A model generated the notes under the pieces. The model searched no databases and was not told the origin of the DNA. It worked only from the letters and a program-made list of their open reading frames with translations. Positions 33,604-62,782 of a stretch of DNA of 64,000 bases are shown one piece after another. The position numbers and the translations under genes are program-made. The stretch covers positions 1,426,001 through 1,490,000 of the forward strand of contig WIUZ02000008.1 of the NCBI GenBank assembly GCA_015956445.1, written 5' to 3'. How positions within the stretch are numbered: position 1 is the stretch's first letter; each line of letters opens with the position of its first letter. Origin of the DNA: Thelephora terrestris (lineage: Eukaryota > Basidiomycota > Agaricomycetes > Thelephorales > Thelephoraceae).

Positions 33604-33668
33604 AAGTCCTCGTGTTGGCGTACGGCAGCCGTTATTACATTGTATGGCGATGATATATTATGCAAGGA

Positions 33669-35985: not shown

Positions 35986-36158
35986 GGTAGAAGCGGCGAC
36001 GGGAGATTGGTGGCCATTAGTCACGGGCCAAGTTGGTGCACGCTACTACGCGACAAGGTCATGTGATGTAACTGTACCGGAAGCAATAACTTAGATGCAT
36101 GATACAAAATCCTCAATACAACCTACAGGTAAATCAAAATCCAACCTCGCTCGCCCTC

Positions 36159-41592: not shown

Positions 41593-42518
41593 CAGTAGTA
41601 CTTATTAAAATGATTAAGACTTTGTGATGTTTTGTCTTAAAAGTGAATGATTTTTCTCATGAGTTCCTCAATGCCCCCAAGGGGGCAAATTTTACTCATA
41701 GAGTATTAATCAAAATTATGGGGGGGACTAGGACCCAGCTGACGGTGCACTGGTGTTCCCAATTAGGCAGGTGCCGATGGTGTGGATGACCCAGGAGAGT
41801 GGATTGCTTATATAATGAAAAATAGACTGTGGGAATTTCCGATCAAAATTTTCCCAAAAGGGAAATTTTGATGGCTGATATAAGCAGGTCATGTGACTGC
41901 AAAAGTGGGTTTTGGTTATGTAAGCAGGTCATGTGACCGACCAAAAAAGAAAATTTTGATGGCTTACATAAGCGGCTCAAAAATGCTTTTTGCAAAAATT
42001 ACTGAAAAAGGAAAATTCCTTTTTAGGAAAGACTTTCCAAAAAAGGAATTTTTGATGGCTTACACAAGCAACTCAGAAATGATTTTGGCAAAAATTACCA
42101 AAAAAAGAAATTACCAAAAAAAGAAATTTCCTAAAAAAGAAATTATGCACTAGAAAATTCGGAAAAATGCCGGAAAAATCCTAAAAAATTCCCACAGGTC
42201 TAGAAAGTGCCCAAAATGGTAAATCAATTCCAGAAATATCCAAAAAATTGTTTTTCTGGCTGGAAAAATCAGAAAGAATTCCGAAAAAATTCCCAAAAAT
42301 TCCAGAATATAGATAAATATTTTATAAAAATTATTTTAATTGTTTTGGTCCATTGAATAGCCCATAATTCCAATATTAATGTATTTTTTGCCCCAAAAAT
42401 TCATAAAAATCCCAAAAAAATAAATAAAAATAGGAAAATACAAATATATCTATAATATTCATTACACCATGAAGTAAAGACCAGTTTGTGGTCATAATCC
42501 AGCCCTAAACCTAGTCCT

Positions 42519-42830
42519 GGACCTAACCTAACCTAACCTAGCCTAACCCTAACCCTAACCCTAACCCTAACCTAGACCTAAACCTACACCTAACCTAACC
42601 TAAACCTAACCTAACCTAACCTAACCCTAACCCTAAACCTAACCTAAACCTAACCTAAACCTAACCTAACCTAAACCTAACCTAACCTAACCTAACCTAA
42701 CCTAACCTAACCCCAAACCTAACCTGCTCTAAACCCAGCCTGCCCTAAACCTAACCTAGCACCAAACCTAAACCTAAACCTAAACCTAAACCTAAACCTA
42801 ACCTGCCCTAAACCTAACTCTGACCTGGCC
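42519..42830. repeat. Telomere-like (CCTAA)n/(CCTAAA)n satellite, left arm
   Basis: About 310 bp of CCTAA, CCTAAA and CCCTAA units in irregular order, with interspersed CCTGCCCTAAA variants towards the inner end. It is followed by a short (TTATC)n run at about 42,840. The units look like degenerate versions of the fungal telomere repeat TTAGGG read on the other strand. Confidence 0.9.
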
Positions 42831-43913
42831 TAGTTTGGTCTTATCTTATCTTATCTTATTTTATCTATTTTATCCTGTCTTACCTACCCTAGACCAAACC
42901 TAACCTGACATAGTCAACTTAACCTAGTCCACCACAGATCACCCAACCTAACCTAAAGTGGTCCACCTGACCCAGACTGATGCAGCTTGAGTTTATCTCT
43001 TCTAATTAGCTGTTATCTTATCTGGCCTTAATCTAAATACCCTAGCTAACCAACATTTAACCCAACCTCACCTGGCTCACCAGCAAGTAACTGGGCTACA
43101 GGAACACACCCTGAGCTGCACTATCCCATATCCTGTATCCAACTGTCACTCAAACACAAGAATTGTGGTGGACCTACAAGTTAGTGGACCCATAAGCCCA
43201 CAGACCCACAAGTATAGGCTGCTCACTCAGTGGAGACATTTGTTATCCAACCTCACCCACGTACCACCCTCACCCTGGATTCTGTGCCAGACCACAACTT
43301 CACCACGGCTCAAGTTCAACCACCTGGCTAAACCCATGTACAATCAGGTCTACAAATCCATGGATCCATAACCAACAGTCTATCAACCTGACTTGCAGGT
43401 TCAGCCAGGTGGTTGAACTTGAGCCGTGGTGAAGTTGTGGTCTGGCACAGAATCCAGGGTGAGGGTGGTACGTGGGTGAGGTTGGATAACAAATGTCTCC
43501 ACTGAGTGAGCAGCCTATACTTGTGGGTCTGTGGGCTTATGGGTCCACTAACTTGTAGGTCCACCACAATTCTTGTGTTTGAGTGACAGTTGGATACAGG
43601 ATATGGGATAGTGCAGCTCAGGGTGTGTTCCTGTAGCCCAGTTACTTGCTGGTGAGCCAGGTGAGGTTGGGTTAAATGTTGGTTAGCTAGGGTATTTAGA
43701 TTAAGGCCAGATAAGATAACAGCTAATTAGAAGAGATAAACTCAAGCTGCATCAGTCTGGGTCAGGTGGACCACTTTAGGTTAGGTTGGGTGATCTGTGG
43801 TGGACTAGGTTAAGTTGACTATGTCAGGTTAGGTTTGGTCTAGGGTAGGTAAGACAGGATAAAATAGATAAGATAAGATAAGATAAGATAAGACCAAACT
43901 AGGCCAGGTCAGA

Positions 43914-44248
43914 GTTAGGTTTAGGGCAGGTTAGGTTTAGGTTTAGGTTTAGGTTTAGGTTTGGTGCTAGGTTAGGTTTAGGGCAGGCTGGGTTTAGAGC
44001 AGGTTAGGTTTGGGGTTAGGTTAGGTTAGGTTAGGTTAGGTTAGGTTAGGTTAGGTTAGGTTAGGTTAGGTTAGGTTTAGGTTAGGTTTAGGTTAGGTTT
44101 AGGTTGGGTTTAGGTTAGGTTTAGGGTTAGGGTTAGGTTAGGTTAGGTTAGGTTTAGGTTAGGTTAGGTGTAGGTTTAGGTCTAGGTTAGGGTTAGGGTT
44201 AGGGTTAGGCTAGGTTAGGTTAGGTTAGGTCCAGGACTAGGTTTAGGG
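43914..44248. repeat. Telomere-like (TTAGG)n/(TTTAGG)n satellite, right arm
   Basis: Inverted counterpart of the left-arm satellite: TTAGG, TTTAGG and TTAGGG units over about 330 bp, preceded by the mirrored (GATAA)n run at about 43,870. Unit order broadly mirrors the left arm but copy numbers differ, as expected from slippage after the arms formed. Confidence 0.9.
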
Positions 44249-45257
44249 CTGGTTTATGACCACAAACTGGTCTTTACTTCATGGTGTAATGAATGTTATA
44301 GATATATTTGTATTTCCTATTTTTATTTATTTTTTTGGGATTTTTATGAATTTCTTGGGCAAAAAATACATTAATATTGGAATTATGGGCTATTCAATGG
44401 ACCAAAAACATTTTTTTTTAAATAATAAAATATTTATCTATATTCTGGAATTTTTGGGAATTTTTTCGGATTTTTTCCTGATTTTTCCAGCCAGAAAAAC
44501 AATTTTTTGGATATTTCTGGAATTGATTTACAATTTTGGGCACTTTCTAAACCTGTGGGAATTTTTTCGGTATTTTTTAGGATTTTTCTGGCATTTTTCC
44601 GAATTTTCTAGCGCATAATTTCCTTTTTGGGAAATTTCCTTTTTTGGTAATTTTTGCCAAAATCATTTCTAAGTTGCTTATGTAAGCTATCAAAATTTCC
44701 TTTTTTAGAAAGTCTTTCCTAAAAAGGGAATTTCCTTTTTGGGATTTTTTGTCAAAATCATTTTTGAGTCACTTATGTAAGCCATCAAAATTTCCTTTTT
44801 TGGTAATCCATCAAATATTTCCTAAAAAGGAAATTCCTTTTTAGGAAAGACCCCTTCAGACACATTTTTGAGACGCTTATGTAAGCCATCAAAACCTTTC
44901 TTTTTTGGTCGGTCACATGACCTGCTTACATAACCAAAACCCACTTTTTCCAGTCACATGACCTGCTTATATCAGCCATCAAAATTTCTCTTTTGGGAAA
45001 ATTTTGATCGGAAATTCCCACAGTCTATTTTTCATTATATAAGCAATCCACTCTCCCGGGTCATCCACACCATCGGCACCTGCCTAATTGGGAACACCAG
45101 TGCCTGGTCAGCTGGGTCCTAGTCCCCCCCATAATTTTGATTAATACTCTATGAGTAAAATTTGCCCCCTTGGGGGCATTGAGGAACTCATGAGAAAAAT
45201 CATTCACTTTTAAGACAAAACATCACAAAGTCTTAATCATTTTAATAAGTACTACTG

Positions 45258-46533
45258 CGTCTCCGGCGACAGCGAGCCAACGCCAAAGCCGACGAACGAC
45301 CTGACGAAACAGCAGAAACGACCTCGCCTGGTTGAGGCTCTTCACAAGGCAGCGACTTCCACCAACCCCGAATCCCTGGCTCTCATGTTCAATGAACTCC
45401 AGCTTCCCCGCCTGAAGCCCTCCCCGCTACGCCCAGATTGCGATCTACGAGATTGGTTGAAAACCTGGACCCCACTCAACTCCTGCATCACTCTGGACGA
45501 CAACGGATCCCCTACCAACTTGCCCGATGAAGACCTCCGAAGAGTCAAGGAGGCTCTCAAGGAGGCGTACGCCCCTGGCACCCGAAACGTCTATGGCACC
45601 GGCTTATTCGCCTTCCACTTCTTCTGTGACTTGAGGGACATCAGCGAAGACCATCGCGCGCCCGTCAACCCGAACGTTCTCGCCTCCTTTATCGCTTTCC
45701 TCATCGGGACCTATGGCGGAGGAGCGATCAAAAACTACGTATACGGAGTCCAAGCGTGGCACATCATACATGGGGTCAAGTGGAAGGTCAACGACATCGA
45801 AATAAAGACTTTGTTCGAAGCAGGCAACAAACTGACACCCCAGGAGTCAAAAAGGAAGGAGAAAAAACCCTGGACCTTGAAGTACCTCGAGGATATCTGT
45901 GAGGCCCTCGTCCCCAGTGACCCAAAGGACGCCGCCATTCTAGCATGCCTTACCACAGCGTTTTGGGGTACGGCGAGGCTCGGGGAAGTTACCGTACCCA
46001 GACTCGACGCCTTCAAGTCATCTTGACATGTCAAAGTGTCAGTCGTTAAGATCACCGAGCGTGACCGAAACCTCCTCGAACAGACCAGCATCTTTATCCC
46101 ATGGACGAAGGCTGCCAAGGAGAAGGGCGAGGAAATCTTTTGGGCGAGGCAAGAAGGGACCTCCGATCTGCTGTCCGCTTTGAAAAACCACCTAAGGGTC
46201 AACAATCCCCCTTCCAACGGACACCTCTTCGCCCATAAGCACCAGAAAAGTATGAGACCCATGACGCGGGCCATCTTCCTCACCCGGATCAACAAGATCA
46301 TCTCCGACAAGAACCTGCCGAAGCTAACGGGTCACGGAATATGAGTCGGTTCCACCCTCGAGTACCTCCTGCGAGGTGTTTCCTTTGACGTCATGAAGGC
46401 CAAAGGAAGATGGAAAAGCGACGCCTTCCGCTCTTACCTGTGAAAGCACGCTCAAATCATGGCGCCATACATTCAGGCAAACCCCATGGCCTACGAAGAT
46501 TTCGTCCACCACGCAATGCTGCCCGTTCGTTGA
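45258..46533 (+). pseudogene. Decayed tyrosine recombinase (Crypton-type or related YR element)
   Basis: Coding begins in frame directly at the foldback border (SGDSEPTPKPTNDLTKQQK) and continues through LKEAYAPGTRNVYGTGLFAF, KNYVYGVQAWHIIHGVKW, ACLTTAFWGTARLGEVTVP and, near the end, TLEYLLRGVSFDVMKAKGRW and HAQIMAPYIQANP. The order (SAM-like N-terminal helices, the Arg in TARLGE, then the LRGVSFDVMKAKGRW segment) is that of the tyrosine recombinases common in Agaricomycete genomes, as in Crypton DNA elements. The reading frame is broken about three times and its 5' part is missing. It is flanked on both sides by same-orientation copies of the foldback arm. I cannot tell a Crypton from another YR element, because no neighbouring transposon genes remain. 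Confidence 0.75.
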
Positions 46534-46771: not shown

Positions 46772-47368
46772 CCATTTTTGGGATATTTCTGGAATTAATT
46801 TACTATGTTAGGCACTTTCTAGAGCCATGGGAATTTTTTCGGTATTTTTTAGGATTTTTCGGAGCTTTTTAGCATATAATTTCCTTTTTTGGTAATTTTT
46901 GTCAAATGCATTTTTGAGTTGCTTCTGTAAGCCATCAAATATTTCCTAAAAAGGAAATTCTTTTTTAGGAAAGACCCCTCCAAAAGCATTTTTAAGATGC
47001 TTATGTAAGCCATCAAAACTTTCTTTTTTTGGACAGTCACATGACCTGATTACATAAGTAACATCCACTTTTTTCAGTCACATGACCTGCTTATGTCAGC
47101 CATCAAAATTTCTTTTTTGGGATATTTTTCGGAATTTAAAAAAAATATTATATAAGCAATCCACTCCCCTGGGTCATCCACATTGTCGGCACCTGCCTAA
47201 TTGTGAACACCAGTGCCCGGTCAGCTGGGTCCCAGCCTCCCCTATAAAAGTTTTAGAAATTCCATGAGCAAAATCTCCCCCTCAGAGCAATCAAAAAATA
47301 ATAAGAAAAAACACTTAAAATTGTGTCATAGTCTCACAAATTTTTAAAGAATCTAATAAGGACTACTG
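46772..47368 (+). repeat. Third copy of the foldback arm, direct orientation, diverged
   Basis: From TTTTTGGGATATTTCTGGAA to ...AATAAGGACTACTG this follows the outer 750 bp of the right arm (about 44,505-45,257) in the same orientation. It has the repeated TTTTTGG and GCTTATGTAAGCCATCAAA units and the CCTGGGTCATCCACA and GGTCAGCTGGGTCC segments. It ends on the same ACTACTG as the foldback. It is clearly more diverged and shorter than the two arms are from each other. The decayed recombinase therefore lies between two direct arm copies. Confidence 0.8.
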
Positions 47369-47773: not shown

Positions 47774-48240
47774 CACTGGGGGCAGGGGCACCTGGAATTG
47801 GTGATTACATCTTGATTACATGGTGAGTTCATGTGCACTTTTCAATAATTGTAATCGCCGATTCCAGGTTGATTACATTTCAAATGTTACCTTGACATGT
47901 AATTCAACTGTTGCCACCAACTCCATTTGAAATTTCCTCAAAATTTTCCCAAGCAATGTTTCCTGAATGTGCCCAGTGGGTACATTGTGAAAACATCTCA
48001 TGTTTTTGAATGCATTTAGATTTCATCTCGGACGATTGAAGAACATGCTGATTACATTCCAGAAACATTTGTTGAGAACATTTCAAATGGAATTGGTAGA
48101 CGTTGGTTGGATTACGTGTCAAGGTAACATTTGGAATGTAATCAACCTGGGATCAGCAATTACAATTATTGGAAAGTGCACATGAACTCACCATGTAATC
48201 AAGATGTAATCACTGATTCCAGGTGCCCCTGCCCCCAGTG
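47774..48240. mobile_element. EnSpm/CACTA-like palindromic MITE 1 (467 bp)
   Basis: The termini CACTGGGGGCAGGGGCACC and the exact inverse at 48240 begin inverted repeats of over 130 bp per arm. The 3-bp target duplication AGA is at 47771-47773 and 48241-48243. CACTG ends with a 3-bp duplication are the EnSpm/CACTA pattern. It has no transposase frame and is non-autonomous. Confidence 0.88.
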
Positions 48241-48339
48241 AGAAAACGTCCCTCAGCATTCTCGACTGTCCCAACAAGGATTCACCTGTCCCTTCACCTT
48301 GCCACACTTCTGTCAGGGTTGAAGGCCTGCTTACTGTTT

Positions 48340-48954
48340 GTGGGGTGCTAGAGGATTAGCAGGATAAGGGGTATCTGGGCAAGCTTTGAGGAAGGGAGTT
48401 CCTGGAGTAGAAACAAGAGGTGGAGGGATGTCAAGAGCGAGTGGTGACTCAAATTGATAGGGATGGATGGGAGAGTTGTAATCCTGACAGAATTCAACTA
48501 GATGTTGAATGAACGGTTTGAAGTCTTGATTGCTGAGTCATTCAAAGCTGTTGAGATATTCTATGACAGTGAAGGGTAAGTCAGTTGGTATATCCCACTA
48601 GAGAACTATGATTGCTGGACAATGTGTGTGGACGTTGGTGGTAAGGTGAATTCGAGGAGTGGGAAAATAGAAGGCTGGACTGATACTGAAGTAGACAGTG
48701 GCTAGCACGCTCTCAGTGAAATCAGATTTCCAGAGGAACTGATGATCAGCTCCAAGTAGGAATGGGGGAGTGGTAACTCTGGCGTCAAGAGCAGCAAAGG
48801 GTCGGTAATATGGGTGATGAGCCAATAGACCAGAGGTCCTATTAAGCTGGAGGCTTCTGATGAGTTTATACTCCCAGATGGAACGCCGAGCGTCAGGTAT
48901 AGTTGGACATTGGATGGGACTAGTAGAGGGGAAAGGGTTAGGGGCGCTGAACAT
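48340..48954 (-). pseudogene. Element A gene A1, copy 1 (decayed)
   Basis: It begins MFSAPNPFPSTSPIQ at 48954 and follows the 207-residue A1 product of copies 2 and 3 (SIWEYKLIRSLQLNRTSGLL, PPFLLGADHQFLWKS, YFPTPRIHLTTNVHTH). The frame is not intact over its full length. The product is unrecognised; see the copy 3 gene at 57337-57960. Confidence 0.7.
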
Positions 48955-49255
48955 ACACTGGCAGGAGAATTCCTGCTTGAATGAGTCAGATAAAGAGTAA
49001 GGCGTGAGGAGAATTCCTCAGCTTACTTTGTTTATTGAGTAGTTGGTAGGAGAGTACGAAAGAGATTGAGAATGGGGAAAAGAAAGGAGCGAACGCTCTT
49101 CCTTATATACCCAATCTCTTACATGCTTAGTATTTGTACAATGAGTCAAACGAGAGTCAACATGGTCTGTGCGTAGTTTAGGGTAGGGCGAATGAGTCAG
49201 AGGAGTGGGACTTAGGACGACTGATGGTAAATACAAATAGGGGAACAATAGGGAA

Positions 49256-49395
49256 TGAGTCGATAGGAGCACAATGGGGATTTCTCGTGTTTTACGGTAG
49301 TAATAGAAGCACAATGGGGATTTCTCAGGTTTCACGGTAGTAGTAGAAGGACAATGGGGATTTCTCCTGATCGGTGGGGATTTCTCAGGATTGAT
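49256..49395. promoter_or_regulatory. Iteron block between A1 and A2, copy 1
   Basis: Four GGGGATTTCTC units spaced roughly 25-50 bp apart, all on the strand that codes for A2. A TATATA box for A1 lies to the left (about 49,107). Equivalent blocks exist in copies 2 and 3. Confidence 0.6.
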
Positions 49396-49598
49396 GGGAT
49401 CGTGATTGGGGCTGAGGGTTCGTTTATCCCCTTTTGGATAACAATGAATAATGGCTTATTGTCGTTACCTCTTTGAGTGTCCCATTGATCTGAGCGTATT
49501 TAGCCTGTGGGGTTCCTTGGTCTTTTCCTCCTCATCATCTCTTTTCCACTCCCACCAATCTACAGTAACTCCCTTCTCACAAACAACCTTTTATCACT

Positions 49599-49897
49599 AT
49601 GTCTCTCAACGCTGCTGCCACCCCCTTTGTTTCCACTTCTCCTTATGAGGCCGACACCCCCTATGACGTTGAACAACTCTTGTATGACACCCTGGCCAAC
49701 ATCACCTTTGATAATCAGGTCGCTCAGGAGTTCCTCACTACTCACAACGCTCCTCCCCACTTTTCGGATCAAGCTGGGTACGATGATCCCAATTGAACAG
49801 TCATGCGTCATCCCAGTGTTTCTCCTTTGGTGGATGCTATGGAGAGAGAAAGGGAGGATAGGATCGCTAAGTTAGAAAAGCGATTAGACCTGATGTA
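49599..49897 (+). pseudogene. Element A gene A2, copy 1, 5' part (interrupted by copy 2)
   Basis: It starts MSLNAAATPFVSTSPYEADT at 49599 and continues to the coiled-coil segment REREDRIAKLEKRLDLMYV, where copy 2 is inserted. The segments ANITFDNQVAQEFLT and NAPPHFSDQAGYDDP match A2 of the other copies. The remaining part lies at 54,509-55,073. The reading frame is decayed as well as interrupted. Confidence 0.7.
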
Positions 49898-49929
49898 CGT
49901 GATGTCACACACATGTGACATATTGAAGA

Positions 49930-50835
49930 AAATCACAAAGGATCTACGTTACAAACGCACTTCTGGTCGAAAGGGCAACAATGAGCGAAATGAAAGGGAT
50001 TGTATACACTCTGAGAGCAATACAAATACTCCCTCGTTACTGGATCTTGCCAGCAATCTCGACAACCCAACACGTCATGCTGGAATCCCTCATGCATCTC
50101 CTGTCTCACATCCACCAAACCCTCACTCACTAATTCGAACTCATACTTGTCCTGAAGACTCGCCACTTCCAACTTCAGCCGCATGCGAACTTGACGAGCC
50201 TTGTTCAACGGGTGACACTGCTGTCCAGAACGAGTCATCAGACTCTTGCGGGTCTTCTTTGAGGTCCTCTCCACCATCTGAGGAACTGGGGCAGGACTCC
50301 AGGGAGGGGATAGAGGGAGAGGAACACCCTGATCCTGGAGGAGTCGGAGGGATGATGGGGGAGGACTTAGGGGGGTTGGTGCAGTAAGAACCGTGGCATT
50401 AGTGTCCAAAGTATCTGAAGAGAGATGCCTGGAAAGGCCCCCAATGTTCCAAGGCAAAGTGAGAAAAGTCGCTGTTAAGACTATTAACAACCACGTACAG
50501 CAGATCCAAATGCTTCTCTAGTTTGGCAATCCTATTCTCCCTTTCTCTCTCCATAGCGTTCACCAAAGGAGAAACGCCGGGACAGCGCATGACTGTTCGG
50601 TTGGGATCATCGTACCCAGCTTGATCCCAAAAGTGAGGGGGGGCGTTGTAAGCGGTAAGAAACTCTTGAGCGACCTGATTATTGAAGGCGATGTTGGCCA
50701 GGGTGTCGTACAGGTGTTTTTCAACATCGTAAGGGGTGTCGGCCTCGTAAGGAGAGGCGGAAACAAAGGGGGTGGTGGCAGCATTGAGAGATATAATAGA
50801 AAAGGGTTGTTTGTGAGAGGGGAAGTTACTGCAGA
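49930..50835 (-). pseudogene. Element A gene A2, copy 2 (decayed)
   Basis: Same product as A2 in copy 3, with the segments SLNAATTPFVSASPYEADTP, NRIAKLEKHLDLLYVVVN, DFSHFALEHWGPFQASLFRY and, at the C-terminal end, LGCRDCWQDPVTREYLYC. The gene is not intact in this copy. Confidence 0.7.
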
Positions 50836-51788
50836 TTGGGAGGAGTGGAGAAGAGACAACGAAGGGAAAGGACCAAGAAATCCCACAGATTAAATATGCC
50901 CAAATCAATGGGACACGCAAAAGGGTAACAACAATACACCATTACTCATTATTGTCCCAAAGGAGATAGACGAACCCTCAGCCCCAATCGCTCCCATCAA
51001 ACTCTGGGAAATCCCCATCACTCTTCTAATGCTACCATGAAACTTGAGAAATCCCCACCGATCATGAGAAATCCCTATTGTCCTTCTATTACCACTGTCA
51101 GGCCGACGCGACCTCTACAGTTCAATAGCACTCTTGCTATCCAAATCTATCACACGCAGGGGTCAAACACACAGTTATAACCCTGTTGCAAAGCCCAGGG
51201 ATATCAGAAGTCTCTTCACAGACTAGATTGGAGAAGAGGAGAAAAAAGGAGACAAGGGTCTTCAGGCACTCTTGCTCTAAGCACACAGCAGTAGAGGTCA
51301 CGGAGAGTCTGATGATAACAAATCTAAGGAGTACAGGCTAAACTACTCTGAGTATATATACTACTTAGATTTGTGACGTGACAGTGACATGTAACTACCC
51401 TAAAGATACAAACACAGACAAACATGGTCCGTGCGCAGCACTGCATGGTCTGTGCGTTACGTGGTGACTAATGCTACAAATTATCAGCTGATAAACGAAA
51501 GTGTGGCGGCCAATAGCAATTTGAGAGCATTACAAAGCAGTTACAAAGCATGACGTAGCCTGGGAATGTTCGGAAGGAATGTGGATATGACTGACTAACA
51601 GCCAATGGCAAAAGGGGAGCATATGACTAAGAAATAGGGGCATATGATGTCATGTGGGTCATGCGCAGTAAACAATAGAAATGATGACTCAACTCCTGAG
51701 TCGTGGAAAGGGCGTGGCATTTGGTATATAACCAAAGGGGGTTGGGTGACTGGTCTTCCAACAAACCCACCTTTGTTACACAGCCAAC

Positions 51789-53048
51789 ATGCCTCATGCT
51801 TCTACTCGCAACCCCACTCGTCGCTCTTCTTCTTACTCTCCTGTTCAGGAGAACAATTACAACATCGACCGCTTCTCCCATGCTCGTCGTGATCCATCCC
51901 GCCCTTATCCTACTTTGGGAGCCGTTATGGACCGGACCGCCACCGCCGACCCTAATGAGGGGTTCTCTGATTTAGGTGGGGGCCCTGCTTGCGTATTCCG
52001 GTTTAGGAAACCAAGCTAACTCCTTTTAGGTTTCAGGGATTTCCTCCAAGCCGCTCGTAGGGTGTCTCGGCGCAAGTTGGCGCGTATCGAGACCAACCCA
52101 TATGCGAGCGAACTCCTCAATAGGGGTGTTGAGTTCATGACAGAGTCCAACGAGACCTTCAACTCCGTGTTGGAGGCCAGCGTTCTCCATACGGGGAACG
52201 TTGGGTCCATGTTAATGGATGAAGTGGCTCACGTCAACGAGCGCATCGATGGTCGTCGTGAGGAGATCGAGGCTTTGGAGAACTGGAAGGAGGATATGCA
52301 GGGGGTTATTCATGGACAAGAAGATAACGTTGTTCGGCAGGGGGCCGATATTGATTTGCTTAAGGTAAATGTGGGGTCGGGAGATAATTGACTTCTCTAA
52401 CCCAACATTTCCTTTAGGGAGAGGTGACTACTCTCAAAAACTTGGTCCGGGCTTTGGTTACTAAAACCGGAGAGTTGGAGGACGATAAGGTAAGGGATAG
52501 GGGTTGAAGATAGTTGATCTCTTCTAACCCTATTCCTTTAGGTTCGCCTTACTCGTCGCGTCTCCGAGTTGACTGGGGAGGTCCGGGATCTCCAGAGGAG
52601 GTGTAACGAACCGGAGGTCCGAGTCGAAGAAGAGGAGGTGGAAGTTCCGTATCGGGCCGGGTCACCGATAATTCCCAATCGGGCCGAGTCGCCGCCCGCT
52701 CGTCTGTTGGTCCGTCACGAGAACAGGTTGGTTCCCATTGATGATGAGGTCATTGAAATCGGGAGCGACGAGTTCTACCAGAACGTAGGAGTTGTCCGTA
52801 GGGACACTCCTCGTCCTGAGTTTGTTTCTACTCCTTGGGGTAGTTGCCGTCAATGGCCTGCTCTGGAGTATGATCCGTACGCCGAGTTCGTTCCTGATAG
52901 TGAACCAAACTCTGATACGGAGCTTCCAGATTATGATGACTTGTCGGATGTGGACCCGAACGAGATCCGGGAACAGAATTGGTTGAACGAGGAGTTGGTG
53001 AGATCGGCATTGGAAGTAGTACAAAGGATCCGAAGAGATATTGATTAG
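51789..53048 (+). CDS. Element B gene B1: coiled-coil protein, four exons, apparently intact
   Basis: I do not recognise the product. Exon 1 starts MPHASTRNPTRRSSSYSP at 51789. Three short introns, each with GT..TTTAG ends, interrupt it (about 51,976-52,028, 52,364-52,417 and 52,489-52,541). The joined frame stays open to 53048. After a basic N-terminus comes RDFLQAARRVSRRKLARIET. A long coiled coil follows, with heptad-like RIDGRREEIEALENWKEDM, LLKGEVTTLKNLVRALVTK and RRVSELTGEVRDLQRRC, then an acidic C-terminus (YDPYAEFVPDSEPNSDTEL and DDLSDVDPNEIREQNW). It has about 360 residues. It could be a scaffold, Gag-like or DNA-bridging protein; the sequence does not decide. Its introns argue that element B moves as DNA. 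Confidence 0.65.
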
Positions 53049-53158
53049 ATAACTCTTTTGTACTGTTGGCTTCCAATGAATCTTCTTTCTATTTTATTGC
53101 GCGTGATCCATGAGTCGTAAAACATAATGGTTTTCATAAGTCCAATCCAAGGGTCAGA

Positions 53159-53389
53159 TTAATAAACCGGTTGACTTCTGCGAGAGGTCAGCGCGCGTCG
53201 CTTATTAACACATCCCTTGTTGTCGGTAGCCTGAATATCTACTAGTTGTCCAGGGGCAACGGAGGGCCAGGTAGGGGGGATCTTCGTATGAAGGTCCGCC
53301 GGTACATGTTCACGTATTATACCTCGGGTCTTCTGGGGTATCTTGACTAGTAGCACGTTCCACGTATTGGACTTCGAGTCGTTAAGCAT
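53159..53389 (-). CDS. Element B small frame B2 (hypothetical, 76 residues)
   Basis: An ATG at 53389 opens MLNDSKSNTWNVLLVKIPQK and ends in a basic tail (KGCVNKRRALTSRRSQPVY). It runs convergent to B1, 110 bp from the B1 stop. The product is unknown; a net-basic short protein could bind nucleic acid. It may be only the first exon of something longer, or a chance frame. Confidence 0.35.
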   Translation of the reverse strand: MLNDSKSNTWNVLLVKIPQKTRGIIREHVPADLHTKIPPTWPSVAPGQLVDIQATDNKGCVNKRRALTSRRSQPVY

Positions 53390-53858
53390 AGGGCATACTG
53401 CATAATAAACAGTTTACCGCCGTGTTTAGGGCAGGGCACCAACTGACTTAGTGGTGATGAGGCGTTAAATAAAGGAAATGAAAGGGGGTAAACGGCGAAA
53501 TCATCACAACCACCATGAAACACAAGAAATCCCCATTGTATCACTATTGACTCATACCTTATTGTTCCCCTATTTTGTATCGCACCACCAGTCGTCCTAA
53601 GTCCTGCTTCGTTGACTCATTCACCCTGCCCTAAACTACGCACAGATTATGTTGACTCTTGTTTGACTCATTGTACGATTACTAAGCCTGTAGAGGATTG
53701 GGTATATAAGGAAGAGCGTTCGCTCCTTCTTTTCCCCATTCTCAATCTCTTCTGTACTCTCCTACCAACTGCTCCAATAAACAAAGTAAGCTGAGGATTT
53801 CTCCTCATGACTTATTCTTCATCTGACTCATTCAAAGCAGGAATTCTCCTGCTAGTGT

Positions 53859-54482
53859 ATGTTCAGCGCTCCTGACCCATTCCCTTCTACCAGTCCTATC
53901 CAATGTCCGGTTATACCCGATGCCCGACGCTCCATCTGGGAGTATAAGCTCATCAGGAGCCTTCAGTTTAATAGAACCTCTGGCCTATTAGCTCACCACC
54001 CCTATTATCGTCCATTTGCCGCTCTCAACACCGGAGTTACCACTCCTCCATTCTTACTTGGAGCTGATCATCAATTCCTTTGGAAGTCTGACTTGACTGA
54101 AAGCGTGCTGGCCACTGTTTACTTCAGTATTAGTCCAGCCTTTTACTTCCCCACTCCCCAAATTCATCTTACCACCAACGTTCACACCCATTGTCCCGCT
54201 ATCATCGTTCTCTGGTGGGACGTACCAACTGACTTACCTTTTGCTGTCATAGAGTATCTTAACAGCTTCGAAAGACTCAGTGATCAAGACTTTGAGCCCT
54301 TCATTCAACACCTAGTTGAGTTCTGTCAAGACTACAACTCCCCCATCCACCCTTATCAATTCGAGTCACCACTCGCTCTTGATATTCCTCCTCCGCTTGT
54401 TTCTACTCCAGGAACCCCCTTCATCAAAACCCGTCCAGATACACCTTACCCTGCTAATCCTCTAACGCCCCACAAACAGTAA
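53859..54482 (+). CDS. Element A gene A1, copy 2 (open, 207 residues)
   Basis: It starts MFSAPDPFPSTSPIQCPVI, 150 bp downstream of a TATATAAGG box (about 53,702). The frame is open throughout and ends NPLTPHKQ, 21 bp before the element end. Conserved blocks are SIWEYKLIRSLQFNRTSGLL, PFLLGADHQFLWKSDLTES, YFSISPAFYFPTPQIHLTTN, and DFEPFIQHLVEFCQDYNSP. A Pro-rich tail follows (PPPLVSTPGTPF). No family is recognised. It is about 80% identical to the copy 3 product by eye. Retention of an open frame in a nested, partly decayed copy suggests recent insertion. Confidence 0.65.
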   Translation: MFSAPDPFPSTSPIQCPVIPDARRSIWEYKLIRSLQFNRTSGLLAHHPYYRPFAALNTGVTTPPFLLGADHQFLWKSDLTESVLATVYFSISPAFYFPTPQIHLTTNVHTHCPAIIVLWWDVPTDLPFAVIEYLNSFERLSDQDFEPFIQHLVEFCQDYNSPIHPYQFESPLALDIPPPLVSTPGTPFIKTRPDTPYPANPLTPHKQ

Positions 54483-54508
54483 GCAGGCCTTCAACCCTGA
54501 CACGTGAT

Positions 54509-55073
54509 TGTCAATAGCCTTAACAACGACTTTTCTCATTTTGCCTTGGAACATTGGGGACCTTTCCAGGCATCTCTCTTCTGGTATTTCAGTCACCAGT
54601 GCCGAGGTGCCTACTGCACCGACCCCCCTCAGTCCTCCCCCATCATCCTCCGACTCCGCCAGGATCAGGACGTTCCTCTCCCTCTATCCCCTCCCTGGAG
54701 TCCTGCTCCTGTTTTTCAGATGGTGGAGAGGACCTCAAAGAGAAGTCGCAAGAGTCCAATGACTCATTCTGGACAGCGGTGTCACCCGTCGAGCAAGGCC
54801 TGCCAGGTTCGCATGCAGTTGAAGTTGGAGGTGGTGAGTCTGCAGGACAAGTATGGATTCGATCTAGTGAGTGAAGGACTAGGTCAAGTGAGGAGGGATA
54901 TGTTTGAGGGCTTGGAGCATGATGTTCTGGGATGTCGGGACTGCTGGGTGGATCCAACTTCGAGAGAGTATTCCTACTGTCCTCAGTCCATTTATAATCC
55001 GTTCCATTTTGCTCACTGTTGCCCAATGGACCAGGACTTTGTTTGTAGGGTAGATCCTTTCCTCCTCGTCTAG
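54509..55073 (+). pseudogene. Element A gene A2, copy 1, 3' part
   Basis: This continues copy 1 after the copy 2 insertion: NSLNNDFSHFALEHWGPFQA, then a Pro-rich region, then RMQLKLEVVSLQDKYGFDLV and the Cys-rich end LGCRDCWVDPTSREYSYC with HFAHCCPMDQDFVC. The A2 stop is at 55073, followed by about 90 bp to the terminal hairpin. Function is unknown. Confidence 0.65.
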
Positions 55074-55171
55074 TCTGTTTGTTTTGTTTTGTACTATTAC
55101 TACAAATGAGACCAATGTCTTGAATAACCTGTGTGATTTTCTGCAAAATGTCACGTGTTCGTGACAACTTC

Positions 55172-56584
55172 CCTCTGTCCCTATTTCCTCTTGCAACTTC
55201 CTGATGTTTTCCCTCTTGACCCGTGACCTTAGACCTGCAACCTGCAACCTGCGCCCCTCAACCCCAGACCTGCGACCTGCGTTCTCCAGTAGATAGCTTC
55301 CCTTGGACTTTGTTTCTCTTGTTCTCCCTCTCGACCATGTCCTGATCAGTCCCAATCATGTCCCAACTATTTCCCAACTCTTCAGCACACCTCTTATTTT
55401 TAATCTTCCTTTTCCTATCTCCATTCTCCATGTCCCGATCACATCTTGATCGATTGTGCCTCTCTCAACTCCAGACCTCCCTCTAGTTCATTTTTCAACC
55501 ACATTCCTTTCCCTCATTGTTCCATTCAATCCCTCATCCCTCCTATGTCATAGACACATCATTAGGTCTCTTTGACATCATTTTGGTTTGTTCCCTTTGT
55601 TCCCTTTGTTCTCAGATTCCCCAGCATCATATATAAAGGCCCCTGTATTCAATAGACTGAACAATAAATCAGTAGCATTCCCTCTCTCTCTTTCTCTCTC
55701 TCTCCCACTCTCCGAGGCCTAGCAGCGTTGCTACAGTTCTCCCTTTGGTTCCCTCATTGTCTCGCTCTCATTTTTGTCATCCCTCTAGTCTCTTGTGTCC
55801 TGCTGGTGTCCCACTTTTTGGCTCTCTTATCCTGATGTTTCCCAACGTCTCCCTTAGTCTATTATTGGTAGTTTCATTTCCTGACTTTTCTGTTGTCTTT
55901 CATTCCTTTTTCCCATTTGTATCCCAACTTTAGCTCTCACCTTTTGTTTGTCTCCTGCAGACTCCCTAGAGGCTCACCCCTCTGAACCAAAGACCCGACC
56001 TTCTGACTGCCATCTTTGCCCTTTTGGACTCCAAAGGCTTAGAGGCTAGTTCAACGGTTGATGAGGTGTTTGTACTGAAACAAAGCTGGTGAGACAACAA
56101 ACATTGGTGAATTGATAAGTTGTACCCGGACGAAGCAGGAATCCCGCTTTGATGACACTGAGGACAAGCCCCTACTTACTGACCAGGTACTTTTTGAATA
56201 CATTGTAGTTCCATGTCCAATGTACTAACACTTTGCTGGGCAAGAACAAGTTGAGTTCTTTCAGAATGTATTGAGCAATGTAATTACTACTTCCCAGCTC
56301 AGTCCACTGTGGAAACATTCAAAAAGTACTGAATTGTCAGCATGCTGTATTTTATTTTATTTTGAACCATTTTTCACACCCAACTTTCGCTCACTTTCCT
56401 TACCTTTCCATCTTATCTTATCAATCCCCCTTATCACAATTCACACGTCATCACAAAAGGACAAAGACAACGCACAATGGTATTACAGGCAGAGCGACCA
56501 CGATGAAGACACAAGAAGAACAGCCGACAGAGTTGAATCCACATGGACTCTATGGACAAGGACTGAGGCATAAGACCCCAGCCG
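55172..56584. other. Unassigned AT/CT-rich stretch with LTR-like signals
   Basis: Beyond copy 1 there is a run of CCTGCAACCTGCGACCTGCG-like short repeats (about 55,226-55,280). At 55,630-55,700 come TATATAAAGG, AATAAA and a CT-rich tract. At about 56,100 the sequence AACATTGGTGAATTG could be a primer-binding-like site. Taken together this could be one LTR and leader of a retroelement fossil, but no second LTR or pol gene is seen in the window. At about 56,185-56,330 an imperfect inverted repeat (CAGGTACTTTTTGAAT / ATTCAAAAAGTACTG) suggests a small MITE remnant. Confidence 0.25.
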
Positions 56585-57213
56585 TCAGGACCTGCTCAAC
56601 TGAGACTCCCTAGCAATAACAGCCTCATCCTCCTCCTCCGTCCCCTCCAAGGCATTCTCAAAAGCTTCCTCATCAACCATCTCAACAACCCAAGCTTCCT
56701 CCAGACAATGAGCGACGGCCAGCTGAACTTCAGTGCGAAGGCAGCTCCTTGCTGAATCGACCAAGGTCTGGTCCTGACTCCGAGTCCTCTGCACTGACCA
56801 TTCCTCCATCCTCTCGGTCAGCTGAGTCACCAACCTCACGGCCTCTGCTGCATGCTGGACTGACGAGAGTGTCAGGCTCGTCAAGTCATTCACGTCTACG
56901 GACTCCAAAGGGATCAGCTCGCCGTGATCCAACCAACACTGCAACATTGTCGCATCCGAATAAGAAGGTGGATCACTTGAGGACTCCTCCAAAGAGGATG
57001 TTGGGATTGCTTGGCTGGATTTGATGGGCTGGATGACAAGCACTGTTGTAAGGGACCCATTGATGAGCACGGATGGAACACTGTCCACGCACCGGAGAGA
57101 CCATTGGAGGAGGGACAGGAACAGCCACCTTGTTCTCTTCCTCATACTCCAACTTGGGCAAACTGCTGGCTGGGTTGACCATTGTCTCCTCAGATGTCTC
57201 GTGGACAACCTCT
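56585..57213 (-). pseudogene. Unrecognised coding-like fragment interrupted by a CACTG element
   Basis: On the minus strand the frame reads SSSDPPSYSDATMLQCWLDH, LTSLTLSSVQHAAEAVRLV, MEEWSVQRTRSQDQTLVD and EEAWVVEMVDEEAFENAL, with an acidic end and stop at 56585. The helical, acidic composition looks like true coding sequence. The right end is cut at 57213 by the target duplication of the next element. Similar minus-strand coding-like pieces at 60,346-60,454, 61,408-62,057 and 62,783-63,119 may belong to one gene split by three insertions. No family is recognised. Confidence 0.4.
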
Positions 57214-57336
57214 TCTCACTGGGGGCAAGGGGTGGTGTTCCGGTCCAGAACATTGCAAGTTCATTGCAAGGAAATGGACGATGTACCTGGCAAAAACCGA
57301 CCCAGAACATCGCAAATGTCAGGGTTGTAGGCCTGC

Positions 57337-57960
57337 TTACTGTTTGTGGGGCGCTAGAGGATTAGCGGAGGGATGTGGGGTGTCGGGTCGAGTTTTGAAG
57401 GGGGTTCCGGGCGTAGAGGTGAGAGGAGGAGGGATATCAAGCGAGAGTGGTGACTCTGTCTGATAAGGATGGACGGGCGAGTTATAGTCCTGGCAAAACT
57501 GGTTCAATTGCTGAACGAACGGCTCGAAGTCTTGACCGCTGAGTTGTTCGAAGTGAACGAGATACTCTATAATCGAATAAGGTAGTTCAGTTGGGATGTC
57601 CCACCAAAGGACGATGAGAGCGGGGGAGTGAGTGTGAACGTTGGTGGTTAAATGGATTTTGGGAGAAGGGAAGTAAAAGGCAGGGCTAACACTGAAATAG
57701 ACCGTTGCTAGGGTACTCTCAGTGAGGTCTGAGTTCCAAAGGAACTGATGGTCTGCGCCTAGAAGGAAAGGAGGAGTAGTGACTCCGGCGTCGAGAGCTG
57801 CAAAGGGGCGATAGTAAGGGAAATGGGTGAGTAAACCGGCAGTTCGGTTTACTTGAAGACTTCTGACGAGTTTATACTCCCAGATAGATCTCCTAGCGTC
57901 AGGGACAACTGGTCGTTGAACGGGACTTGTAGAGGGGAAAGGATTAGGGGCGCTGAACAT
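57337..57960 (-). CDS. Element A gene A1, copy 3 (unknown 207-residue protein)
   Basis: An ATG at 57960 opens MFSAPNPFPSTSPVQRPVV. The conserved core has RRSIWEYKLVRSLQVNRTAG, FPYYRPFAALDAGVTTPPFL, LGADHQFLWNSDLTESTLAT and YFPSPKIHLTTNVHTHSPAL, then WWDIPTELPYSIIEYLVHFE and a Pro-rich tail. It is one open exon ending NPLAPHKQ at 57337. No signal peptide, Zn-ribbon or nuclease motif is visible. The mixed beta/aromatic composition suggests a compact folded domain. It is present in all three copies with most differences conservative, which suggests selection on the protein. A TATA-like TATATAAGG lies about 140 bp upstream on its strand. Confidence 0.65.
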   Translation of the reverse strand: MFSAPNPFPSTSPVQRPVVPDARRSIWEYKLVRSLQVNRTAGLLTHFPYYRPFAALDAGVTTPPFLLGADHQFLWNSDLTESTLATVYFSVSPAFYFPSPKIHLTTNVHTHSPALIVLWWDIPTELPYSIIEYLVHFEQLSGQDFEPFVQQLNQFCQDYNSPVHPYQTESPLSLDIPPPLTSTPGTPFKTRPDTPHPSANPLAPHKQ

Positions 57961-58276
57961 ACACTGGCAGGAGGATTCCTGCTAAACGAGTTAGAAAGGG
58001 GTAAGACGTGAGGAGAATTCCTCAGCTTACTTGTATTCAGGTTGTGGGTAAAGGAGTACAGAAGAGATTGAGAATGGGGAAAAGAAGGAGCGAACGCTCT
58101 TCCTTATATACCCAATCCTCTACAGGAGTCATTATTCTACAACGAGCCAAACAGGGATCAACATGGTCTGTGCGTAGTTTAGGGTAGGGTAGATGAGTCA
58201 GAATGAGGGGACTTAGGACGACAGATAGTAATTACTCATACGGGAACAATAGGGGCACGAGTCGATAGAAGCATTC

Positions 58277-58407
58277 GGGGATTTCTCGTGTTTCGTGGTA
58301 GCAATAGAAGCGAGGTGGGGATTTCCCGTGATTGATGGGGATTTCTCTGGATCAATGGTAGCAATAGCAGCGTGGTGGGGATTTCCCATGATCGATGGGG
58401 ATTTCTC
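58277..58407. promoter_or_regulatory. Central iterons GGGGATTTC(T/C)C of element A copy 3
   Basis: Five copies of GGGGATTTCTC or GGGGATTTCCC lie in 131 bp between the divergent genes, alternating with GTGATTGATG and TGGTAGCAATAG-like spacers. All point the same way as gene A2. Copies 1 and 2 have four each with the same polarity. They may be promoter elements or binding sites for an element-coded protein. Confidence 0.65.
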
Positions 58408-58614
58408 TGAGTTTGATGGGATTGCGATCAGGGTTAAGGGTTTGTTTCTCCTAATTCGGACTTTAATGGATAATGGGTTATTGTTTTCTCTTTCCAGTTT
58501 GCCTTTGAGTCAGGATGTATTTAAGTCAGGGGGATTAATGATCGTTCCCTCCATCGCCTCTTTTCCACTCCCACCAATCAACCACTACCTTCCTCTTAAA
58601 CATCCGTTACTACT

Positions 58615-59518
58615 ATGTCTGCCTTCGCCGCCAACAACGTTGTTCTCAACGCTGCCGCCACCCCTTTCACCCCGTCCTTCGAGACCAATGCTCCCTACGA
58701 CGTGGAGCAACATTTGTATGACTCCCCTGCCAACATCGCCCATGACAACCAGGTTGCCATAAATTTCCTCACCGCTCATAACGCTCCCGCCAAGTTCTGG
58801 GAGCAAGCTGGGTACAAAAACCCTAGACTCTCTAGGCCTGTGGTTCAGGCTCAACACCCTGGAGCCGTTCTGTTATTGGACACCATGGAGAGGGAGAGGG
58901 AGGATAGGATTGCGAAATTGGAGAAGCGGGTGGACCTCATGTACGTCATCATGAACAGTTTGAATGATGACTTCTCTCACTTTGCTTTGGAACATTGGGG
59001 ACCTTTCCAAGCATCTCTCTTCCGATATTTCGGACACCAGTGTCGCGGGGCTTATTGCACCGACCCCCCTTGCAAGTCCCCAGTCGTCCCTTCGCCACCG
59101 CCAGGATCAGGGCATTCCTCTTCCTCCATCCCCTCCCTGGAGTCCTGCCCCAGTTCGCCAGATGGTGGAGAGGTCCCAGAAGAAGAAGACCCGCAAGAGT
59201 CCGATGACTCGTTCTGGTCAACGTTGTCGTCCCTCCGACAAGTCACGTCAGGTGAGGATGAAGTTGAAGGTGGAAGTGGCGGGTCTCCAAGACCGCTATG
59301 GGTTCGCCTTAGTGAGCGCAGCCTTGTCGGACGTGAAGCGGGAGATGTATGATAGTCTATCTCATGATGTGTTGGGGTGTAGGGAGTGTTGGCAGGATCC
59401 GGTGACGCGCGAGTGGGCTTACTGTCCTGAGAGTGTTCACAACCCTCACCACTTCGCTCATCGTTGCCCTCTTCCTCAGAACTGTTCATGTGATATCGAC
59501 CCGTTTGTTCTTGTCTGA
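58615..59518 (+). CDS. Element A gene A2, copy 3 (coiled-coil and Cys-rich protein, two overlapping frames)
   Basis: An ATG at 58615 opens MSAFAANNVVLNAAATPFTP. The segment YDVEQHLYDSPANIAHDNQV is followed by a short coiled coil (MEREREDRIAKLEKRVDLMY) and DFSHFALEHWGPFQASLFRY. A Pro/Ser-rich region comes next. The C-terminal part, read in an overlapping second frame to 59518, has MKLKVEVAGLQDRYGFALV and a Cys/His-rich end (VLGCRECWQDP, YCPESVHNPHHFAHRC, CSCDIDPF) that could bind zinc. I leave the link between the two frames open; splicing is possible. No family is recognised. It occurs in all three copies. Confidence 0.55.
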
Positions 59519-59605
59519 GTTTGTAGTTCTTTTTAGCCACTCTTGTACTATTATTACTGCGAATGAGACCAATGTCTTGGATTACTTGTGAGATCTTGGC
59601 TACTA

Positions 59606-59623
59606 TGTCACGCGTTCGTGACA
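59606..59623. repeat. Terminal hairpin of element A copy 3
   Basis: TGTCACG, loop CGTT, CGTGACA: a perfect 7-bp stem at the exact 3' end of the element. The copy 1 equivalent is 55149-55166 and copy 2 is 49903-49920 (inverted). In copy 2 a stem pair is changed on both sides, so pairing is kept. Confidence 0.75.
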
Positions 59624-60345
59624 GCAAAGACATTCTGAATTTTCCAGGCCAATTTCTTTGCAGTGTTCTGGGACAGAAAATGGTCAGTACATTCACAGTG
59701 TTCCAGTAATGTTCCCACTAGGTAATCCATGGGTACATTCAGAATCTCCCCAAAGAAAGTAACCTTGATGTCGATGATTGGCGCATTTACAATGTTCCTG
59801 GTCAGGAAAATTCAAAATGCGGCCAAACAATGTGTTTGCAGTGTTCCAGGGTGGTACATCCAGAATGTACTGGTGCCGTTGACTGCAATGTACTGAGTTT
59901 TGCAAACATCAGGAACACTGCAGGAACACTGCAAGGAAACTGGAAAAACTGGGAACATTTTGAATGAACTTGTGATGTTCCCAGTTTTTCCAGTTTTCTT
60001 GCAGTGTTCCTGACGTTTGCCGAACTCAGTACATCACAGTTGACAGTACCAGTACATTCTGGACGTACCACACTGGAACACTGCAAAAACACTGTTTGGG
60101 TGCATTTTGAATTTTCCTGTCCAGGAAAATTGTAAATGTACCCATGGGTTACCTAATGGGAACATCACCGAAACATTGTGAATGTACTGACCATTTTCTG
60201 TCCCAGAACACTGCAAAGAAATTGGCCTGGAAAATTCAGAATGTCTTTGCGATGTTCTGGGTCGGTTTTTGCCAGGTACATCGTCCATTTCCTTGCAATG
60301 AACTTGCAATGTTCTGGACCGGAACACCACCCCTTGCCCCCAGTG

Positions 60346-60454: not shown

Positions 60455-61407
60455 CACTGGGGGCAAGGGGTCAAATACCCGGTGGGTACATGCTGAACAC
60501 ATTGTGATCACAGTCAACAAGTGATCACAATGTGCCCAGTGGGGGAAATTTGAATACATTCAAAATGTGCCTGGCCATGTGAGTCCAATGTGCCCAGTAG
60601 GCACATTTTGATTGTGATCACAATGTACCCATCAATGTGATCTCAATGTGCCCACTGGGGACATTTTGATTGCAATCACAATGTAGACATCAATGTGATC
60701 TCAATGTGGCTGCTGTGCACATTTTAATTTCTTTCACAATGTTCCCATCAATGTGTTCCCAATGTACCCAGCTCATTACATAATAGTTTCTTTCACAATG
60801 TTGCCCACAATGTGTCCAGCATGTGGCTGAGCCACTCATTCAAACTTCTTTCACAAAGTATCCAGTGATGTGTCTAGAATGTGTACAGCCATACATATAG
60901 TGATTTCTTTGAAAGTTCATGGTGAAATTGAACAATATTGAGATTACATTGTGATTATTTCAAAAAGGACCCCCTGGGGAGATTATGGACACATCACTGG
61001 ATAATCTTTGAAAGAATTTTGAATGAGTGGCTCAGCCACATGCTGGACACATTGTGGACAACATTGTGAAAGAAACTATTATGTAATGAGCTGGGTACAT
61101 TGAGAACACATTGATGGGGACATTGTGAAAGAAATTAAAATGTGCACAGCAGGCACATTGAGATCACATTGATGTCTACATTGTGATTACAATCAAAATG
61201 TCCCCAGTGGGCACATTGAGATCACATTGATGGGTACATTGTGATCACAATCAAAATGTGCCTACTGGGCACATTGGACTCACATGGCCAGGCACATTTT
61301 GAATGTATTCAAATTTCCCCCACTGGGCACATTGTGATCACTTGTTGACTGTGATCACAATGTGTTCAGCATGTACCCACTGGGTATTTGATCCCTTGCC
61401 CCCAGTG
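60455..61407. mobile_element. EnSpm/CACTA-like palindromic MITE 3 (953 bp)
   Basis: The ends CACTGGGGGCAAGGGGTCAA and its inverse at 61407 have the 3-bp target duplication AGA at 60452-60454 and 61408-61410. Each arm is built of about six degenerate 60-75 bp units around CACAATGTRCCCAC...AATGTGATCTCAATGTG. The arms meet near 60,930-60,990. There is no coding gene. Confidence 0.88.
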
Positions 61408-62057: not shown

Positions 62058-62782
62058 CACTGGGGGCAAGGGGGTACTTACCCAGTGGGTACATTGTGAG
62101 TTCATTGTGAGTTTTGAAACCATTTGCCCAGTCATTACCCACCAGGTACTTTTTGGGTACTTTTTGAAAGATACCCATCAATTCACCTGGATTTTACCCA
62201 CTGGGTACGTGGTGGGTACTTTGTAAAATTACCCACTCAGGAACCCAGTGGGTATTTTTTGAGCGAAACCCCTGGGTTCTTTTCACAATTTACTTTCCAA
62301 AGTGCCCATCACAAACCTGAGCCACTCATTGAGAGTTCTTTCATAAAGTACCCACTGATCTGATCAAAATGTACTCAACAGATACTCAATGGGTTCTTTG
62401 AGAGTTTGTGGTGAAACTGAGCCACAGTGTGAGTTCTTTGTGAGTTCTTTGAAAAAACCCACTGGGTACATTGTGATCAGATCAGTGGGTATTTTGTGAA
62501 AGAACTCTCAATGAGTGGCTCAGGTTTGTGATGGGCACTTTGGAAAGTAAATTGTGAAAAGAACCCAGGGGTTTCGCTCAAAAAATACCCACTGGGTTCC
62601 TGAGTGGGTAATTTTACAAAGTACCCACCACGTACCCAGTGGGTAAAATCCAGGTGAATTGATGGGTATCTTTCAAAAAGTACCCAAAAAGTACCTGGTG
62701 GGTAATGACTGGGCAAATGGTTTCAAAACTCACAATGAACTCACAATGTACCCACTGGGTAAGTACCCCCTTGCCCCCAGTG
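62058..62782. mobile_element. EnSpm/CACTA-like palindromic MITE 4 (725 bp)
   Basis: The ends CACTGGGGGCAAGGGGGTAC and its inverse at 62782 have the 3-bp target duplication TCA at 62055-62057 and 62783-62785. The arms are almost perfectly complementary: a 79-codon open frame is found with nearly identical translation on both strands (62124-62363 and 62716-62477), a product of the palindrome and not a gene. It is rich in CCCACTGGGTAC units. Confidence 0.9.

Follow-up and report, generated by a model that had tools for sequence, protein, structure and literature searches.

The stretch of Thelephora terrestris DNA analyzed here, referred to as the window, comprises 64,000 nucleotides (contig WIUZ02000008.1, positions 1,426,001 to 1,490,000 of the forward strand). 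It contains three copies of a mobile element, termed element A, and one copy of a sister element, termed element B. Two of the A copies are nested, and B lies within the inner one. The elements, with net lengths obtained by subtracting nested inserts, and the features that define their boundaries are as follows.

57317-59623, plus strand: element A, uninterrupted copy, 2307 bp; target-site duplication (TSD) GCAAA at 57312-57316 and 59624-59628
48311-55166, plus strand: outer copy of element A, net 2251 bp; TSD ACTTC; split by the inner copy
49903-54502, minus strand: inner copy of element A, net 2182 bp; TSD CGTGA; split in turn by element B
51096-53508, plus strand: element B, sister element, 2413 bp; TGTCAGGCCG...ATCATCACA (TGTCAGG...ACA); TSD ACCAC; carries a different gene
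59606-59623, unstranded: terminal palindrome of 18 bp, TGTCACGCGTTCGTGACA
60124-60345, minus strand: paralogous empty site for copy 57317-59623, with a single GCAAA, within the second arm of an inverted-repeat element that has CACTG ends

All three A copies start with TGTCAGGG, end with GTGACA and carry TGTCA...TGACA ends, and the four insertions (the A copies and B) are each flanked by an exact 5-bp duplication of a different sequence. We evaluated the end pairs against a control in which TGTCA/TGACA pairs 250-8000 bp apart were collected from the window and the left flank was slid: matching 5-bp flanks occur in 4 of 792 pairs, three of them being the A copies, as compared with 0.75 matching pairs on average, and never more than 3, in 40 slid controls. 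The remaining pair, 31255-37318, has no repeat in the window self-comparison and is probably due to chance. The boundaries of A are also set by homology between the copies in that self-comparison. For the uninterrupted copy, the flanks fused at one GCAAA are identical to the reverse complement of 60124-60345 over positions 1 to 169 out of 222, and 69 of these lie beyond the junction; the final 53 positions hold 10 differences. This empty site within the window confirms the insertion boundaries. The copy is hosted by an apparent foldback element at 57217-60345.

The 18-bp palindrome at the GTGACA end has perfect 7-bp arms in every A copy (59606-59623, 55149-55166 and 49903-49920), and the inner copy carries a paired change from G-C to A-T. 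Only 3 of the first 40 alignment columns of A vary among the three copies, coding or not. The terminal inverted repeat is short, 5 bp in A and 3 bp (TGT/ACA) in B; a comparison of the first with the last 400 bp, made for 57317-59623 and for B, gave no terminal repeat longer than 9 bp, and the 9-bp match is attributable to chance. Element A is thus confirmed as a real mobile family with three copies. An earlier note on this DNA had described the three copies, the duplications ACTTC, CGTGA and GCAAA and a hairpin at the GTGACA end, all of which are present, and had proposed copies lacking a 5-bp duplication as a counter-test, of which there are none in the window. Its inner copy, given at 49903-54503, required revision: the end is at 54502 and the copy is inverted. 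The note does not mention that the 2413-bp insert in this copy is a sister element, B.

Element A carries two divergent genes, A1 and A2, arranged as follows in the three copies.

57337-57960, minus strand: gene A1, uninterrupted copy, open over 207 aa, with its stop codon 20 bp short of the TGTCAGGG end
53859-54482, plus strand: gene A1, inner copy, 207 aa, open
48331-48954, minus strand: gene A1, outer copy, with two in-frame stops
58615-59518, plus strand: gene A2, uninterrupted copy, in one frame up to about 59034; the C-terminal part, which begins by about 59215, is in the +1 frame
49599-49902, plus strand: gene A2, outer copy, N-terminal part, with one in-frame stop; cut by the inner insertion
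54504-55073, plus strand: gene A2, outer copy, C-terminal part, a single open frame
49933-50821, minus strand: gene A2, inner copy, with an in-frame stop followed by the +1 frame

Both are real genes that were under purifying selection while the lineages diverged, as judged by nonsynonymous (dN) and synonymous (dS) divergence calculated by the NG86 method, in which dS values above 1 are saturated. Between the uninterrupted and inner copies, the A1 proteins are 82% identical over 206 codons, with 41, 11 and 99 differences at the three codon positions, a dN of 0.116 and a dS of 1.93. The corresponding values over 118 codons are 0.10 and 2.74 for the uninterrupted and outer copies, and 0.034 and 0.90 for the inner and outer copies. 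For A2, the N-terminal part could be compared in one pair (dN 0.208, dS 2.94, 129 codons), and the C-terminal part in three (dN/dS values 0.241/1.58, 0.208/0.78 and 0.145/0.82 over 145, 177 and 142 codons, respectively).

A1 is open in two of the three copies and A2 forms one open frame in none, a +1 change being needed in the inner and uninterrupted copies. The frame switch (frames 58964-59518 and 58615-59352 in the uninterrupted copy) was read from the excess of third-position differences between these two copies, and its position is roughly equal in both although they have diverged. A frameshift, an odd intron or chance decay are candidate causes; as for the intron, inspection of splice candidates by eye revealed no GT-AG intron of fitting length common to the three copies. 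The earlier claim of two genes in each copy, spanning about 2.2-2.3 kb, holds, with the reading frames intact only to the extent given above. Its statement that no enzyme is recognizable is borne out: parts of A1 and A2 gave only weak matches in Pfam, none above cut-off, no match above cut-off in PHROGs or NCBIfam, and nothing beyond noise among PDB sequences, where one major histocompatibility complex match (expectation value, E, 0.018) was taken as chance. The structure prediction that it had recommended was run, and the AlphaFold2 models were too poor for use, with a mean predicted local distance difference test score (pLDDT) of 32.1 for A1 and 40.5 for the C-terminal part of A2.

Element B, which breaks the inner A copy within its iteron block, contains one gene.

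51789-53048, plus strand: gene B, exons 51789-51975, 52030-52364, 52418-52489 and 52542-53048; 366 aa, in frame throughout, intact

The splice model is our choice among predicted splice-site candidates; the introns are 54, 53 and 52 bp long, and each contains CTAAC. In Pfam, the gene B protein has six weak matches, several of coiled-coil type, all below curated cut-offs (best SlyX, E 0.0024), and a search of NCBIfam with the last exon alone gave no family above cut-off. Compared with A1 and A2, this protein shows no similarity beyond noise, the best match covering 25 residues at E 0.029. At the termini, A and B have only the first seven bases on the left and the last three on the right in common.

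In addition to these end bases, A and B have a promoter-like architecture in common; the features concerned, and the iteron block of A, are as follows.

58163-58174, unstranded: shared site ATGGTCTGTGCG, common to element B, 61 bp from the TATA match
51424-51456, unstranded: shared site in B, two copies, starting at 51424 and 51445
58102-58110, minus strand: TATA box TATATAAGG of A, predicted to drive transcription in the direction of the TGTCAGGG end; its offset is 786-792 among the three copies
51353-51360, minus strand: TATA box TATATATA of B, palindromic; offset 258 from the TGTCAGG end
58277-58410, unstranded: iteron block of five GGGGATTTC units between divergent predicted promoters

When A (57317-59623) and B are compared at the DNA level, the top-scoring match is CATGGTCTGTGCGT, identical at 14 of 14 positions (E 0.017). 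The pattern ATGGTCYGTGCG is expected 0.015 times per 64 kb under uniform base use and was observed four times, every time inside A or B (once each in the outer copy and in 57317-59623, twice in B); under a relaxed pattern, a decayed form of the site is also seen in the inner A copy. Counted between match starts, the site lies upstream of the TATA match in the same orientation relative to the TGTCAGG end, by 61 bp in all three A copies and by 71 bp in B, the second B copy being 92 bp from the TATA box. Since the TATA box of B is palindromic, its direction rests on the shared site. Between the TATA box and the TGTCAGG end there are about 790 bp in A, largely occupied by A1, and 257 bp in B, where the list of open reading frames (ORFs) has none of at least 80 aa on that strand. 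A second TATA-like box, at 58518 in 57317-59623 and at 51725 in B, lies 365-410 bp to the other side and precedes A2 or gene B, respectively, on the opposite strand. AATAAA occurs 70 bp downstream of the TATA match in two of the three A copies.

That A and B combine the same kind of ends and the same promoter site with unlike genes suggests that A1 and A2 are cargo rather than a mobilizing enzyme. TG...CA ends with an inverted repeat of 3-5 bp, 5-bp duplications and an outward promoter together make up the anatomy of a long terminal repeat (LTR). A and B both have TG...CA ends with a very short inverted repeat and no longer terminal repeat, the duplication, for which 4-6 bp would be typical of an LTR, is 5 bp in every insertion, and the A1 stop lies 20 bp from the end. 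Of the expected order of promoter and polyadenylation signal, a TATA box is present in all three A copies and in B, whereas AATAAA follows it in the two A copies mentioned and in neither 57317-59623 nor B, so that this part of the LTR anatomy is incompletely supported. Based on these observations, we propose, with a probability of about 0.6, that A and B are solo LTRs of some 2.2-2.4 kb from two related LTR retrotransposon families of a filamentous fungus, probably of Ty3/Gypsy type, and that they carry genes. The earlier note had named LTR integrases as one source of such ends and had listed flanking LTRs among its counter-tests, and had not raised solo LTRs as an identity for the copies themselves.

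Under the solo-LTR proposal, the 5-bp duplications would be the work of a retrotransposon integrase, and each insertion would have lost its gag-pol interior when its two LTRs recombined. In the direction of the TGTCAGG end, each LTR would consist of a U3 region with the shared site and TATA box, followed by R-U5 running out through that end. A1 would lie in sense within R-U5 of A, its stop just short of the end, and a divergent accessory gene would occupy the other strand of U3: A2 in A and the spliced gene in B. An antisense position in U3 would allow gene B to keep its introns. It is tempting to speculate that the products of A1, A2 and gene B control the element, perhaps through binding to the iterons.

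Several observations weigh against this proposal. All four insertions are solo. We saw in the window neither a full-length element or a pair of LTRs nor any primer-binding site, polypurine tract, reverse transcriptase or integrase, and from 40 to 64 kb no YxDD motif occurs in open frames of 60 aa or longer. AATAAA is absent at the expected place in 57317-59623 and in B. The opposite LTR orientation, which would place A2 and gene B in sense, is an alternative. LTRs rarely encode proteins, and two selected genes inside one would be unusual. Antisense extra genes already in print, as far as the excerpted account goes, sit between pol and the 3' LTR and not within the LTR (PMC7264820), and among the papers listed, judged by their titles and the beginnings of their abstracts, we recognized no report of ORFs inside fungal LTRs, which is no proof of absence in print. 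Collections of mainly viral and prokaryotic DNA, which have little bearing on fungi, yielded no relative: protein-pattern scans of viral contigs gave 3, 50, 56, 32 and 57 pattern matches and a scan of genome contigs with A1 alone gave 80, none of them confirmed, and DNA-pattern scans of viral and genome contigs gave zero. Element A is real and, within the searches made, undescribed, and its class is most likely a known one, the LTR, in an unusual gene-carrying form.

We consider it very unlikely that A represents a new type of transposon, complete in itself, the "mobilization module" of the earlier note, in which A1 and A2 would form an unrecognized integrase-like machine that joins TG...CA ends with a 5-bp stagger. 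Such a two-protein system would lack a DDE enzyme of known family, and B would be a cousin with swapped proteins or be moved in trans. The purifying selection on both genes between copies (dS about 0.8 to 2.9), their presence in all three copies and the lack of database matches beyond noise would suit such a machine; the claim is nevertheless the less well supported part of the note, given that B has the same kind of ends, duplication length and promoter site without A1 or A2, that the terminal inverted repeats span only 3-5 bp, and that A2 is broken or frame-shifted in every copy. TGT...ACA ends with 5-bp duplications also suit DDE transposases in the style of Mu, Tn7 or Ginger, and A and B could be non-autonomous gene cassettes moved in trans by an unseen enzyme of this kind. 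Different cargo between similar ends is in keeping with this, but to our knowledge no eukaryotic transposon family of such a kind makes 5-bp duplications, the outward promoter of B, 257 bp from the end, would have no evident role, and A and B share just seven left-end and three right-end bases; we regard such cassettes as unlikely. It is also quite unlikely, in our estimate, that A and B are LTRs of non-autonomous retroelements resembling large retrotransposon derivatives (LARDs), or LTR-derived cassettes domesticated by the host, with A1, A2 and gene B in its service. Gene B, intact with three introns, and the open A1 frames would fit a host function, but nested, repeated and partly broken copies have the look of a mobile element and not of a host locus.

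Cut-and-paste transposons generally have inverted repeats at their termini that reach some 10 bp or more, as compared with 3-5 bp here, and a recognizable transposase, for which A1, A2 and gene B gave no family match above cut-off, a result that bears on autonomous copies only. CACTA elements are ruled out by the ends, TGTCA and not CACTA/G, and by a duplication of 5 bp and not 2-3 bp; hAT elements, considered on account of CAGGGTTG near the left end, by the right end and a duplication of 5 bp and not 8; and Cryptons, which use a tyrosine recombinase, by four different 5-bp duplications with no single shared target sequence. An LTR retrotransposon at 48311-55166 with its arms as LTRs is likewise ruled out, as the A copies there are inverted and nested, not direct.

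The window has the look of a filamentous basidiomycete, with a GC content of 49%, short introns, and Nup192, Rap-GAP and kinase genes. It also contains a duplicated gene that by its look is a putative F-box/leucine-rich repeat type (635-2319 and 3107-4778; 88% DNA identity). A 3.7-kb inverted repeat at 41593-45257 (91% over 2.9 kb in the self-comparison) carries extended tracts of degenerate, telomere-like CCTAA/TTAGG repeats in each of its arms; it is adjoined at about 45214-46500 by an interrupted putative tyrosine recombinase gene with no Pfam match above cut-off, and a diverged third repeat lies nearby at 46774-47368. Four inverted-repeat elements with CACTGGGGGCA ends (47774-48240, 57217-60345, 60455-61407 and 62058-62782) have apparent 3-bp duplications AGA, TCT, AGA and TCA, in the same order, and appear to form a CACTA-type foldback family. 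At 55630-55680, TATATAAAGG is closely followed by AATAAA and a CT-rich tract, like the R region of another LTR; convincing ends were looked for around this stretch and none were found.

If the solo-LTR proposal is correct, some fungal retrotransposons hold protein genes inside their LTRs. Each insertion would then bear the genes twice and every solo LTR would stay behind as a free-standing gene cassette, a possible route for genes to spread and to outlive their element. Products acting on the iterons of the LTR would be candidates for self-encoded copy-number control, and annotation may list such LTRs among host genes or unknown repeats. Should the proposal be wrong, the remaining options, either a new transposition machine or gene-bearing cassettes mobilized in trans, would be even more surprising.

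A protein encoded largely inside an LTR has a precedent in sag of mouse mammary tumor virus, which A and B would resemble in this respect; it differs in being retroviral, in sense orientation and a single gene. The fission-yeast elements Tj1, Tosmo and Tcry1 belong to the Ty3/Gypsy class. Likened by description only, their LTRs match A in the 5-bp inverted ends 5'-TGTCA...TGACA-3', in the occurrence of solo LTRs and in 5-bp duplications, perfect in Tosmo1, Tosmo2 and Tcry1, whereas the Tcry1 LTR is about 410 bp and the excerpted text mentions no LTR genes (PMC10085805). In rice, Retrosat2 and RIRE8 have the ends TGTCACACCC-GGGCGTGACA (TGTCAC...GTGACA in Retrosat2), and the Retrosat2 LTRs exceed 3.2 kb; these elements carry an extra ORF0 upstream of the gag-pol ORF, while the genes of A and B would instead be within the LTR (PMC3485330). 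An antisense gene of unknown function, comparable to A2 and gene B in their proposed orientation, is found in Grande (gene23, with its own promoter reported), RIRE2, Retand and Boty of Botrytis (brtn), there in the position between pol and the 3' LTR noted above (PMC7264820). The crapaud LTRs of Podospora anserina are shorter (339-443 bp), with no U3 genes in the portion of the description at hand, and would be like A and B in that the part of U3 upstream of the TATA box accounts for most of the difference between their subfamilies and that solo LTRs are common (PMC10787394). Solo LTRs are abundant also in an agaricomycete, Pleurotus ostreatus, where two assemblies contain 609 and 585 (PMC4905642).

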